42,592 bases of DNA from Pectobacterium versatile. Lineage in GTDB: Bacteria > Pseudomonadota > Gammaproteobacteria > Enterobacterales > Enterobacteriaceae. A program made the position numbers and the translations under genes. The notes beneath the pieces are model-generated. The model saw nothing but the letters and a program-made list of their open reading frames with translations. It did no database searches and was not told the DNA's origin. Below are positions 28 to 23,718 of this stretch, piece by piece. The stretch is taken from the NCBI RefSeq assembly GCF_020166435.1, contig NZ_JAINZP010000029.1:1-42592 (forward strand), written 5' to 3'. The stretch's first letter is position 1. Every line of letters starts with the position of its first letter.

Positions 28-888
28 CTATGAAAGTGGCAGTTTTTCCAGCGAATCGAAGCCATAACGCTGCAATATTGGCCACAGCGTAGCGACTTTA
101 GGCGTAATCGCCAGGCAGTAAACCAGATTCTTATCTGTCGAAAGTGAGGGATTATCCAGATTAGCAATCAGCCATGCTGTTCTTTTAGCTATAGCAGCGC
201 CAGAATCCACAAGACGCGTACCATCTGGCAAGGCCATTTTCAGTTCTTCTGCTAATAATGGAAAATGCGTACACCCAAGTACGACCGTATCTGGCGGTTC
301 TGGTAAACGCAGCCAAGGGCGCAGAATTTTTTGCAATTCAGAAATAGAGATCGTCTCACCCTGCAATTTCGATTCTGCTAACTCGACCAGTTCTGACGAT
401 CCCAATGACAAAATCTGGCAATCCGTCGCAAAACGGGCAATCAGTTCGTGCGTATAGGGGCGTTGAACCGTTGCGCGAGTCGCCAATAGGCCAACAACAC
501 CGTTGCGTGTCAGCTTAGCCGCCGGTTTAACCGCTGGGACGACGCCCACGACAGGGAAAGTAAAGCGCTCACGTAGCGCAGGAAGGGAAATCGTACTCGC
601 CGTATTGCAGGCAATCACAACTAATGCAAGCTGATGGCGTTGTTGAACTGCGTTAACAATCTCAACCACGCGCTCGATAATAAACTGCTGTGATTTCTCA
701 CCATAGGGAAACGCTTCGTTATCGAATGCGTATATATAGTGAAGATCCGGCAAGAACTGCCGGATTTCGTCATAAACAGACAGCCCGCCTACGCCGGAAT
801 CGAAGACCAGAATCGTAGGACGGGATGGCAGGTTAGAAGGTATAGCTTCCTGTGAGATAGTATTCTCGCCCTGCCGTGCGGTAGCCAT
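28..888 (-). CDS. murI: Glutamate racemase
   Basis: Cytoplasmic cofactor-independent racemase that converts L-glutamate to D-glutamate for peptidoglycan. The protein shows the N-terminal FDSGVGGLS loop and both catalytic cysteine motifs, ACNTAS and GCTHFPLL. The ATG at 886-888 (MATARQ...) gives 286 residues, matching E. coli MurI (about 285, also beginning MAT). A GTG start at 933 would add 15 residues with no family counterpart, so I reject it. With this start the gene overlaps the 3' end of btuB by 56 nt, as I recall for the btuB-murI pair in E. coli, so translation is probably coupled. The stop lies 27 nt from the window edge, so its terminator and downstream neighbour are not visible. Confidence 0.97.
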   Translation of the reverse strand: MATARQGENTISQEAIPSNLPSRPTILVFDSGVGGLSVYDEIRQFLPDLHYIYAFDNEAFPYGEKSQQFIIERVVEIVNAVQQRHQLALVVIACNTASTISLPALRERFTFPVVGVVPAVKPAAKLTRNGVVGLLATRATVQRPYTHELIARFATDCQILSLGSSELVELAESKLQGETISISELQKILRPWLRLPEPPDTVVLGCTHFPLLAEELKMALPDGTRLVDSGAAIAKRTAWLIANLDNPSLSTDKNLVYCLAITPKVATLWPILQRYGFDSLEKLPLS

Positions 889-2710
889 ATGCCGTCTCAT
901 AATCTTTATCAAACAGGTTGGCGATTCTACCACGAACTGTTAGATGAGAGGTGATCGGATATGAGGCTGCGAGATCCCAAGTACTATACCCGCCGAGCTT
1001 AACAGGTTGAGAGGGGAAAACATCAAAATTAGTATCGGAACGAGCGCCTTGGTAAAGCCATGTCAACGACACATTTACATTATTTTCTAATGTCGTAGAA
1101 AGTTCATACTTCGCTTTTTTATGGGCACGACGAGCTAAAGATTTATCTGCCGTTTTATCCTTGGCATCCAAATATTCCAGAGTCATCTGATGCGACAACC
1201 ACCATGTATCATAGGCAGCAGTAAACTCAGCTCCGGTCATTACCGCTTTGCCAATATTATCGTATGTACCTAGCATCGGAGTAATCGCACGATAGTTGAT
1301 TAAATTATCAACTTCATTCCGATAACCAGAAAGACGCCAGTTTACAGGGCCACTTAGGCCTTCTAGGCCAATTTCCCACTGCTTACTTTCTTCAGGCGAT
1401 AAATTGGGATTCCCCTGCGAGTATGCCGTGTCATATATCTTGTCAAATGTTGGTGCTTTAAATGCCGTACCGTAAGAACCTACAATTCGATAACCTTCAA
1501 CAAATTCCCATGCAGCACCGGTTTGCCACGTACCATGTCGACCATATTGTTGATTATCATCACCACGTACAGCGCCTTCTAATGTAACAGAACCAAACTG
1601 TTGCTGAGTGGTCAGGTATACCCCTGTGTTATCGCGGCTTTGAGCGTTCGTATACGCAGACATTCCTCCCGCGTCAGCGCGCTCATTGCGCCAATCCGCC
1701 CCCAGACTTAAGCTACCATTTCCAACACTGAAGACGTTACCCCATTGCAGATTACGCTGCTCAATCTGCGTAATTGTTCCGTTATATTTCCCGGTTGCAT
1801 CGTTAAAATTCAGATCATCATAGGTTTGGTAACTGGCCGTTAATTGACTTGAATATATACCTTCATTGAACTTCAATCCCGCATCATAATTTCGAGTATT
1901 CAAATAGCGCTTATCACTGCTACCGCTAAAAACGGCGTCATAATCCGTATTGTTGTCATATCCATAAGCACGGAAAAAGCCAGAAGTACTTTCAGAAAAA
2001 CGCTGCTCCAACGCTCCCCAAAAAGATTTGCTGCGATAACCATCATTGTCTCTGTCAATCGGCAAAGACGAGGAAGGATAAACATTATATCCGTGGGTCG
2101 CTTCATAACTTCCAGCAACGCTTACCACTGTATTGTCACTCACATGTCCACGTACTGAGCCATCATAGTTTTGGTATGCATGTGAGCCGTAACCAGCATT
2201 TAACACCCCGCCATCCTGGGCACGTTCAGTGATAATGTTAATAACCCCGCCGATAGCATCAGAACCGTAGACTGCTGAGCGAGGGCCGCGAATATATTCA
2301 ATACGCTGCACCAACGACATTGGTATCTGGCTAAAATCAACACTACCTGTTACGCCAGAAGATGCCATACGAACACCATCAATCAGTACCAATACATGGC
2401 TAGCACTTCCACCACGGATAAATACTGATCCAAGCTGCCCGCGGCCACCATTCTCAGCAATATCTACACCCGGCAAACGACGCATCACATCATTGAGCGA
2501 CTTTGCCTGCCAGCGATCGATATCGGCTCGAGTTACAATACTGTTTGCCGCCAGCACCGAAGAAACCGGCTGTGCGAAACGGTTTGCGGTTACCACTATG
2601 TCATCGGTATTTTTTTCCGATGACAAATTTGGAGATGAACTGTTTTCCTGTGCCCAGCCAGAAAACGCCGTGACGGAAAGCGCCGTCAGCAGCGAAACTT
2701 TTTTAATCAT
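833..2710 (-). CDS. btuB: TonB-dependent vitamin B12 outer-membrane receptor BtuB
   Basis: Outer-membrane 22-strand barrel that imports cobalamin using TonB-ExbBD energy. A signal peptide of about 20 residues (MIKKVSLLTALS...) is followed by the TonB box DDIVVTANRF near residues 36-45. Next come a plug domain with the RRLPGVDI and IRGPRSAVYGSDAIGG motifs, a long beta-rich barrel, and a C-terminal phenylalanine (GSYTF) typical of BAM substrates. At 625 residues it is close to E. coli BtuB (about 614). The long leader holds a cobalamin riboswitch, and a hairpin over the ribosome-binding region lies directly before the ATG. The 3' end overlaps murI. Confidence 0.97.
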   Translation of the reverse strand: MIKKVSLLTALSVTAFSGWAQENSSSPNLSSEKNTDDIVVTANRFAQPVSSVLAANSIVTRADIDRWQAKSLNDVMRRLPGVDIAENGGRGQLGSVFIRGGSASHVLVLIDGVRMASSGVTGSVDFSQIPMSLVQRIEYIRGPRSAVYGSDAIGGVINIITERAQDGGVLNAGYGSHAYQNYDGSVRGHVSDNTVVSVAGSYEATHGYNVYPSSSLPIDRDNDGYRSKSFWGALEQRFSESTSGFFRAYGYDNNTDYDAVFSGSSDKRYLNTRNYDAGLKFNEGIYSSQLTASYQTYDDLNFNDATGKYNGTITQIEQRNLQWGNVFSVGNGSLSLGADWRNERADAGGMSAYTNAQSRDNTGVYLTTQQQFGSVTLEGAVRGDDNQQYGRHGTWQTGAAWEFVEGYRIVGSYGTAFKAPTFDKIYDTAYSQGNPNLSPEESKQWEIGLEGLSGPVNWRLSGYRNEVDNLINYRAITPMLGTYDNIGKAVMTGAEFTAAYDTWWLSHQMTLEYLDAKDKTADKSLARRAHKKAKYELSTTLENNVNVSLTWLYQGARSDTNFDVFPSQPVKLGGYSTWDLAASYPITSHLTVRGRIANLFDKDYETAYGYRTAGREYYLTGSYTF

Positions 2711-2712
2711 TG

Positions 2713-2750
2713 TTAAAGCATCCGAGAAATAATAAGGATGCCGCAGGCTC
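2713..2750 (-). promoter_or_regulatory. Expression-platform hairpin over the btuB ribosome-binding region
   Basis: Read on the minus strand, GGCATCC and GGATGC flank an AT-rich loop a few bases before the btuB ATG at 2710. In E. coli the same position carries a ribosome-binding-site hairpin that forms when adenosylcobalamin is bound. I infer the same translational switch here. Confidence 0.75.
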
Positions 2751-2789
2751 TGTTAATAGCACGCGATATGCAGAACCAATTGCGACGTA

Positions 2790-3182
2790 TTCCGGCAGGT
2801 CTTCGGGCTTGGATGCCGCTGTTACCACAAACCGTCAACGACGGTAAGGGATACAACGAAAGCGATGACTTCCCATCTATACCCGTCATACTTCAAGTTG
2901 CATGTGCGTTGGCTGCGTTCAGTCACCCGAATCACTTACTTAAGTAAGCTCAGCGGGATTCCTTCGCTTGCCGCATTACGAGGAACATAAAATGTCCCTC
3001 GCCCTGACGGGCCAACGCCTTGCGTTGTTCAAAACGCTAACGTTTTGTCCTGAAACTCGAATTATTTAGGGTACATAACAGTGTCTGCATAATAATGCTA
3101 TCGCTGGGGCTTTCCTTACCGCTGCGCGTCAGCTCCAGATTTACACTGGATTCCCTTTTGACTTGTGATACAAGGCCGGACG
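2790..3182 (-). promoter_or_regulatory. Cobalamin riboswitch of btuB, interrupted by an ERIC element
   Basis: On the minus strand the 5' half reads GGGAATCCAGTG, then the core GCTGACGCGCAGCGGTAAGG, then GACACTG. The 3' half has GGGAAGTC and the B12 box AAGCCCGAAGACCTGCCGG (about 2792-2810). CCGGC near 3176 can pair with GCCGG at the 3' end to close P1. These blocks match the E. coli btuB leader closely. The RNA is about 390 nt instead of about 200, because roughly 195 nt of ERIC sequence lie between GACACTG and GGGAAGTC. Every conserved block I recognise is retained, so the aptamer is probably still functional. Confidence 0.92.
2878..3075 (-). repeat. ERIC element (copy 1) with internal insertion
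   Basis: One end reads ACCCGTCATACTTCAAGTTG and the other AATTATTTAGGGTA, the two termini of the enterobacterial repetitive intergenic consensus. The central ERIC palindrome is present in diverged form (CACTTACTTAAGTAAGCTCA). About 70 extra bases (2979-3051) with four small hairpins are inserted near one end. The ends are inverted (TACCC...GGGTA), so the whole element can fold as one long hairpin. It lies entirely inside the btuB riboswitch. Confidence 0.88.
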
Positions 3183-3205
3183 CTCATCCTACAATCGCGA
3201 ATTAC

Positions 3206-3221
3206 AGAAGTCTAGACTTCT
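3206..3221. promoter_or_regulatory. Candidate MetJ operator between btuB and trmA
   Basis: AGAAGTCTAGACTTCT is a perfect 16-bp palindrome made of two adjacent 8-mers, AGAAGTCT and AGACTTCT. Each matches the met box AGACGTCT at 7 of 8 positions. Two tandem boxes are the minimum MetJ operator. The site ends about 25 bp upstream of the start of the btuB riboswitch, where the btuB promoter must lie. A TGTAAT hexamer on the minus strand partly overlaps it. Regulation by MetJ is inferred. Confidence 0.6.
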
Positions 3222-3326
3222 ACCTCACTACAGATGAATAACGTAACAAAACTGGACTTCCTAGCCGGATTCCCTACAATTCTCGGCCAATAACCTCCTT
3301 TTAGACGCTGTTCAGACGAGAAAACC

Positions 3327-4430
3327 ATGACGCCAGAAATTCTGCCCATCGAACACTATGACGATCAGCTTGCAGAGAAAACAGAGCGTCTGCGTGGAAT
3401 GATGGCACCTTTCAATGCCCCAGAGCCTGTGGTCTTCCGTTCTCCCGTCAATCACTATCGGATGCGCGCCGAATTCCGTATCTGGCACGATGGTGACGAG
3501 CTTTATCACATCATGTTTGACCAACAGACCAAGCAACGCATCCGAGTTGATCGGTTCCCAGCAGCCAGCGAACTGATTAATCGCCTGATGCCCGAGCTAC
3601 TTGCCGCAATCCAGCCTGACCCCGTGCTGCGCCATAAACTGTTCCAGATAGATTATCTGTCAACCATGAGCGGCAAAGTGATCGTTTCGCTGCTGTATCA
3701 CCGCGCACTGAACGAGGAATGGCAGGAACAGGCCCGCGCGCTACGCGATAGCCTGACAGCACAGGGATTCCATCTACAGTTGATCGGTCGCGCGACAAAA
3801 ACCAAAATCTGCCTCGATCGCGATTATGTCGATGAATGCCTGCCGGTTGCAGGTCGGGATATGATTTACCGGCAGGTAGAAAACAGCTTCACGCAGCCGA
3901 ATGCCGCTATCAATATTCAGATGCTGGAGTGGGCGTTGGATGCAACAACGGGATCAACAGGGGATTTGCTGGAACTGTATTGTGGTAACGGTAATTTTTC
4001 ACTCGCGCTGGCAAGAAATTTCGAACGCGTGCTAGCAACCGAAATCGCCAAACCATCTGTCGCGGCGGCACAATATAATATCGCCGCAAATCAGATAGAG
4101 AACGTACAAATCATCCGCATGGCGGCAGAAGAATTTACGCAAGCCATGCAGGGCGTGCGTCAGTTTAACCGTTTACAAGGTATCGATCTGACAAGCTACC
4201 AGTGCGAGACTATTTTTGTTGACCCACCGCGCAGCGGACTGGATGACGAAACGGTGAAACTGGTGCAGGCGTATCCGCGCATTCTTTATATTTCCTGTAA
4301 CCCGGAAACGCTAAGCAACAACCTGAAAACGCTATCGGAAACCCATGAGATTCGCCGTCTGGCGCTGTTCGACCAATTCCCTTACACCCACCATATGGAG
4401 TGTGGCGTGCTGTTGGAAAAACGTCAGTAA
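3327..4430 (+). CDS. trmA: tRNA (uracil-5-)-methyltransferase
   Basis: Forms 5-methyluridine at position 54 of tRNA T-loops using S-adenosylmethionine. The protein is 367 residues (family about 366). It shows the SAM-binding ELYCGNGNF motif at about 216-224, FVDPPRSG at 297-304, the nucleophile Cys324 in ISCNPETL, and the general-base Glu358 in HHMECG. Gln190 is also kept, so numbering matches the E. coli enzyme. It is divergent from btuB and convergent with yijD. The start follows GACGAGAAAACC, a moderate ribosome-binding site. Confidence 0.97.
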
Positions 4431-23544: not shown

Positions 23545-23718
23545 GGGGAAACCTCTGTTAAGGCCGTGTCGCTATCCAGCCCTGTTCCGCCAGACACCAC
23601 ACGAAAGTTGTATAAGTAAGTTTCATTATGCGAACAGCATAGTGGCGGCGGATCATACAGAATCTGATACCCCGATGCAATCGCATCCACACATTATCCC
23701 TCGCAGCATGTACACTAG

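Follow-up and report, generated by a model that had tools for sequence, protein, structure and literature searches.

An ERIC repeat in the P11 hairpin of the btuB cobalamin riboswitch of Pectobacterium versatile, and ERICs in place of the P8-P11 branch in a second genus

The closest described system to the locus analyzed here is the adenosylcobalamin riboswitch of Escherichia coli btuB (class I, RF00174), which belongs to the same gene and has the same core, L5-L13 kissing loop, P10-P11 and J11/10. The accessible portions of the literature describe regulation of E. coli btuB in terms of P13/P14, a pseudoknot and Rho (PMC11162775), divide cobalamin riboswitches into classes I, IIa and IIb (PMC11260477), and include a four-way junction with an L4-L6 contact (PMC10907184). 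The btuB leader of Pectobacterium versatile differs from that of E. coli in that its P11 tip holds a 194-bp repeat, and in that a gathering-level Rfam scan of the whole window (the complete stretch of 42,592 nt that was analyzed, contig NZ_JAINZP010000029.1) does not report its aptamer, which bears out an earlier warning that covariance searches would easily miss it. The repeat has the inverted TA ends, single stem-loop and many copies that the available text of two papers attributes to the ERIC (IRU) elements of enterobacteria (PMC2229807, PMC2267715), but whereas an ERIC usually lies beside a gene, this long-form copy lies within a folded riboswitch domain.

Other small repeats have been described in or near structured RNAs. 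The leader of the pneumococcal trp operon likewise combines a repeat, BOX, with riboswitches, and the folding of the two is said to be largely independent in the part of PMC3049150 available; BOX, however, lies between two T-box riboswitches, whereas the ERIC lies inside one aptamer. Palindromic elements of Rickettsia are likewise found within structured RNAs, namely tmRNA and RNase P RNA, but they form another repeat family and their host RNAs are not metabolite sensors, as far as the excerpt of PMC2229807 goes. A 2024 review, in the portion available, treats the formation of riboswitches by MITEs as conceivable (PMC10969869), and RNase E work on ERIC transcripts in Yersinia is recounted in the accessible text of two reviews (PMC2229807, PMC10969869). 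No report of an ERIC inside a riboswitch was found among the titles, abstract openings and passages covered, from a literature collection in which subscription journals are only sparsely represented.

The btuB gene lies on the minus strand of the window (833..2710) and its product, a TonB-dependent vitamin B12 receptor, matches the NCBIfam equivalog NF007926 at 917.8 bits (cut-off 836). The divergent open reading frame upstream (3327..4430, plus strand) is putatively trmA, a name given from its position beside the btuB leader; in an annotated record from E. coli, trmA and the btuB riboswitch are likewise neighbours. Between them, cmscan and a genome search place the cobalamin riboswitch aptamer, split by the ERIC, at 2777..3193 on the minus strand. 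When positions 2550-3330 were scanned, RF00174 matched at 58.1 bits (gathering threshold 31.5; E 9.8e-14), with a local end that bypasses the 197 nt separating GACACUGUUA from AGAUGGGAAG. A genome-level search (E up to 10, with 150 of 190 candidates scored) also recovered it at an E of 1.5e-13. By its score above the curated threshold and by its conserved core, J11/10 and B12 box, the sequence matches RF00174. A candidate second cobalamin riboswitch among the same 150 of 190 scored candidates was rejected, as it was a 19-bit match inside a 465-aa reading frame on the opposite strand. The sole gathering-level match of the whole-window Rfam scan was an L31 ribosomal protein leader (RF03157, 59.7 bits, 23551-23603).

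The conserved blocks can be read directly on the minus strand on both sides of the repeat, where they had been predicted. Upstream of the ERIC are GGGAATCC and the GCTGACGCGCAGCGG core, followed by GACACTG (3085-3079), which forms the 5' side of P10 and the start of P11 and is equivalent to E. coli nt 88-94. Beyond the ERIC are GGGAAGTC (2874-2867; J11/10 and the 3' side of P10; E. coli nt 104-111, in a leader numbering that starts 240 bases before the start codon) and, from 2810, the B12 box with J6/3, AAGCCCGAAGACCTGCCG (2793..2810), placed by the RF00174 alignment and the letters. The L5 half of the kissing loop, ACGCG (3129-3125), is complementary to L13, CGCGT (2765-2761), which lies upstream of btuB in a hairpin formed by 2777-2771 and 2752-2746 and whose role is taken from the accessible parts of PMC11162775 and PMC10907184. 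No intrinsic terminator was found on the minus (sense) strand of the leader; the plus strand has one terminator-like site.

The available part of PMC5359240 places P10-P11 of the E. coli riboswitch at 90-93, describes contacts of J11/10 with J5/6 and J6/3, and assigns L9, J10/11, P11 and J11/10 to four stretches, 97-100 and 106-109 among them. From these assignments and the E. coli positions of the two flanking blocks, as far as that text gives them, the ERIC lies past the contact loop, at the P11 tip. Of the 80 btuB loci that were read, 71 lie outside Pectobacterium, and in these the tip measures between 7 and 54 nt; the stretch from the P11 hairpin to the B12 box is variable as well. Long hairpins of 34-54 nt without an ERIC occupy the P11 tips of Rahnella and Ewingella (L050, L056, L057, L059, L064, L065, L067-L069). 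The tip of Leclercia UBA7405 (L090), 54 nt from GACACTG to GGGAAGTC, contains TTTATACCCC, possibly the remnant of another repeat.

Alignment with copies from the same genome and with six other Pectobacterium leaders gives the ERIC limits of 2880..3073 on the minus strand (194 bp, TACCC...GGGTA). The site inside the btuB aptamer that had been proposed thus holds, with limits narrowed from 2878..3075, and the identity of the repeat is confirmed by at least 41 distinct places in the same genome that match it, the leader copy included (62 aligned pieces); this number is a lower bound, since 40 of the 253 candidates were scored. The ends TACCC and GGGTA are inverted, as in other ERIC copies. The length is 194 bp, not 127 bp, and the difference belongs to a length variant that is common in this genome: among the 28 other best-scoring copies, counted only where both ends could be placed, 12 were short, 11 exceeded these by about 70 nt and 5 by about 145 nt. 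The leader copy falls in the middle class, its extra 71 nt (2978..3048, edges approximate, from alignment with short ERICs) following CGAGTTTCAGG, and the same internal insert is common to other ERIC copies of the genome. A match to AaHKsRNA22 (RF02902, Aggregatibacter sRNA 22) at 2968-3056 reached 26.5 bits, below the gathering threshold of 39.8, and was set aside as chance or a common hairpin shape; the resemblance of the 71-nt insert may perhaps reflect a shared repeat module.

The original prediction had the repeat replace a few bases of a hairpin loop, but the leader alignment reads instead as an insertion at TA. On the minus strand, the ERIC is flanked on the left by TTATG (3074..3078) and on the right by TAGAT (2875..2879), so that TTATG-[TACCC...GGGTA]-TAGAT stands in register with a 12-nt allele, TCTTT-TA-TAGAT, found in Pectobacterium. 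The right flanks are identical, and the 12-nt allele fits an empty TA site, whose TA the ERIC would have duplicated. As four of the five left-flank bases differ between the two alleles, this target sequence is a reconstruction.

The repeat was also predicted to fold into a single rod that extends the helix, and the self-contained part of that fold agrees with the folding calculations, which give the ERIC a single stem-loop. The pairing probability kept inside the insert was 0.98 in the P. versatile leader and 0.95-0.99 over the seven ERIC leaders, whereas shuffled inserts had means of 0.65-0.74 and none of 100 reached the natural value in each of three leaders (L001, L023 and L025). A clean extension of the helix fared less well: the predicted means for P10 and P11 were 0.49 and 0.42 in the seven ERIC leaders vs 0.77 and 0.88 in 18 ERIC-free ones, with 0.22 and 0.24 in the P. 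versatile leader, 0-0.06 with shuffled inserts, and a scatter for P11 from 0.05 (L023) to 0.86 (L022) between single ERIC leaders. The predicted P6 was 0.00-0.01 in all 25 leaders, so the folding model is poorly suited to judging the fold with ligand bound.

The insertion is not private to one genome. RF00174 matched in all 25 Pectobacterium genomes searched, above threshold in 24, and the leader alignment places an ERIC in the P11 tip of seven of them, with identical junctions and orientation; the other 18 have a loop of 11-18 nt. Four forms of the ERIC occur: a short one (L022, L023, L024), the long one of P. versatile, another long one (L025, L026) and a shrunken one (L021). Its presence requires at least five changes on the trmA tree and is thus not a stable trait. 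In a tree of the ERICs themselves, which included 28 of the 29 other copies from the P. versatile genome (L113-L141, with L123 unplaced), the seven leader copies did not form one clade and needed three changes. This scattering, together with internal inserts that differ among the P. versatile copy, L021 and L025/L026, could reflect repeated insertion, or exchange of ERIC copies, at one favoured TA rather than a single old insertion. However, a single clade was not rejected (p-AU 0.176) and all seven leaders have the same odd left flank, TTAT(G/C), so that we regard repeated events as a possible but rather doubtful origin of the shared site; gain, loss and exchange appear not to be separable from these trees. 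Among the 24 other Pectobacterium genomes, the DNA identity of the btuB side to the P. versatile copy was 83-98% in eight and 58-65% in 16, and the leader outside the insert kept 95-97.5% identity despite the divergent btuB alleles, a pattern that suggests replacement of the receptor allele.

From the position of the repeat, its identity as an ERIC, its predicted self-contained fold, the intact motifs and the low divergence of the aptamer, we infer that the RNA would still bind B12 and regulate btuB, and that the leader is probably a working riboswitch of class-I type with a transposed ERIC in its P11 hairpin. The ERIC, a small repeat that is non-autonomous and has TA at its ends, would have entered at a TA of the P11 tip, a region whose length varies freely among enterobacteria; owing to its inverted ends it would fold into a long hairpin of its own, so that P10, J10/11, J11/10 and the core could still form and adenosylcobalamin could still repress btuB via the L5-L13 kissing loop. 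The claim that the binding-core blocks were left intact held up well: of 252 columns that do not vary among ERIC-free leaders, only one was changed in the P. versatile aptamer outside the insert. It is unlikely that the insertion damaged the switch and that the ERIC leaders are slowly decaying, with btuB expressed without control by B12. Such decay would agree with the lower predicted P10 and P11 and with the leaders L021-L025, which changed at 5, 7, 4, 9 and 5 otherwise invariant columns (gaps accounting for 2, 2, 0, 2 and 1 of these) and, in L024, within the conserved GGGAA block, compared with 0-7 changes when ERIC-free rows were left out one at a time (0-2 in 16 of 18 rows, with near-identical pairs among the rows). 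It would also agree with a divergence of the aptamer without the loop of 0.042 in the seven ERIC leaders (0.042-0.044 over two counts, one of which omits L021) vs 0.030 in the 18 ERIC-free ones. However, the value for the ERIC leaders is still about six times below that at four-fold sites of trmA (0.252; 0.244 for the ERIC-free leaders), L026, like the P. versatile aptamer, has a single change at the invariant columns, and the kissing loop is intact.

Less probable again is that the ERIC has been kept because it is useful to btuB, for example through an exposed RNase E site or an altered folding speed. Its presence in 7 of 25 Pectobacterium genomes could be taken in this sense, as could the effect of ERICs in transcripts on mRNA stability in Yersinia (according to the accessible text of PMC2229807 and PMC10969869) and the divergence of the shared backbone, 0.064 among six leader copies (0.093 once L021 is included) vs 0.269 at four-fold sites. 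Yet the repeat is absent from 18 of 25 genomes and changes its internal form freely, and the whole aligned insert differs at 0.14-0.16 between copies. Moreover, a distance of only 0.024 separates the leader copy from the nearest ERIC at another site of the genome, so that exchange or recency can explain the low divergence. The Pectobacterium case is read most simply as a tolerated insertion.

A second genus of the same family, g91, came to light when 15 genomes with weak best RF00174 matches were re-read from a family sample of 392; further ERIC leaders may exist in the remainder of the sample, which includes 156 genomes without an RF00174 match. Among the 24 g91 genomes, btuB leaders with an ERIC arm were found in 13 (L158, L164, L170-L180), armless leaders in six and leaders with a full arm in four, with no hit in one genome. 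In the ERIC-arm leaders, the repeat stands in place of the expected P8-P11 branch, in the orientation opposite to that in Pectobacterium, and comes after CGGTAATTAAGG, a strand that we interpret as the 5' side of P6-P7 and that is exact in 11 of the 13. The armless leaders close P6 with UAAAAGU (five) or UAAAGU (one). J6/3 reads GATACC in all 19 leaders without a full arm vs GAAGACC in the four that have it, and L5 ACGCG and a downstream GCGCG are kept in 23 of 23. The core of the armless leaders diverges by 0.058, whereas their 5' flank reaches 0.256 and four-fold sites 0.52. A search for the g91 core variant elsewhere in the family matched 5 of 392 genomes, four from g91 itself and one (G009) within a coding frame, and no further case was accepted. 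The g91 genomes measure 3.8-4.9 Mb, with a GC content of 0.39-0.42 in the stretches analyzed. In a trmA+btuB tree, the 19 leaders without a full arm group together (support 90/96) and at least five changes between the ERIC and armless states are needed, so the arms have probably been lost, or regained, several times.

The ERIC hairpin of g91 has 97.7% of cells paired over the 13 sequences, vs 24-43% in slid versions. Five pairs show double changes (mean 2.0 in shuffles, of which 2 of 500 reached five) and the covariation score is 0.109 vs 0.076 in shuffles (0 of 500 as high), for a structure derived from the same 13-sequence alignment on which it was tested; the 18 further pair types are not above shuffles (407 of 500 as high). 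The leader ERICs diverge by 0.097 over all 13 sequences and by 0.070 without L164, the corresponding values being 0.096 and 0.093 for the core P3-P5 and 0.238 and 0.194 for the linker after the ERIC. Four-fold sites, at about 0.5, lie far above this, but strong constraint as deduced from that comparison was weakened, given that orthologous ERICs elsewhere are also slow: between G114 and G412, 16 of them pool to 76/1319 = 0.058 and the leader ERIC differs at 1/98, with 1 of the 16 lower. This control used 20 of 21 pairs (L190/L226 omitted for a partial flank) and its pool 16 of 19 controls (L184, L196 and L207 omitted, under 60% aligned). In comparisons with G424, the leader ERIC differs by 0.061 for G114 and by 0.051 for G412, the lowest of six loci although partial for G412, and the other loci range over 0.09-0.37, some of them perhaps different ERIC copies. 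ERICs in general thus seem to drift slowly, with the g91 leader copy at the slow end.

The compensatory changes and low divergence together suggest that the g91 ERIC may have been domesticated. We tentatively propose, at somewhat less than even confidence, that an ERIC took over from P8-P11 as a structural arm of the btuB riboswitch while J6/3 changed from GAAGACC to GATACC, that repeated loss of this arm would then have left a switch with a bare P6, which we take to resemble class II RNAs, and that Pectobacterium would represent a milder entry into the same arm. Mobile repeats are usually seen as spacers beside genes, and these leaders place one inside the fold of a metabolite sensor, so that repeats such as ERIC can become physical parts of RNA sensors. 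That two genera each show ERIC entry into one arm, at distinct points, in opposite orientations and with different outcomes, would be unexpected to a specialist. The Pectobacterium series (short loop, short ERIC, two long ERICs, shrunken ERIC) and the g91 series (full arm, ERIC arm, no arm) form a ready natural set for asking what B12 riboswitches need of their peripheral domains and how their choice of ligand evolves. Switches of this kind can escape curated RNA searches, as seen in the whole-window scan and in the 14 of 24 g91 genomes that lack an RF00174 match above threshold.

Two further ERIC arrangements were observed in g91 and near an armless leader. A partial ERIC match lies at C1:4183412-4183476 in G421, about 65 nt 5' of an armless btuB aptamer (near L165). 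The g91 genome G424 carries head-to-tail ERIC arrays with a spacing of about 125-128 bp, for example at C1:4058953-4059671 and C1:2848301-2849162.
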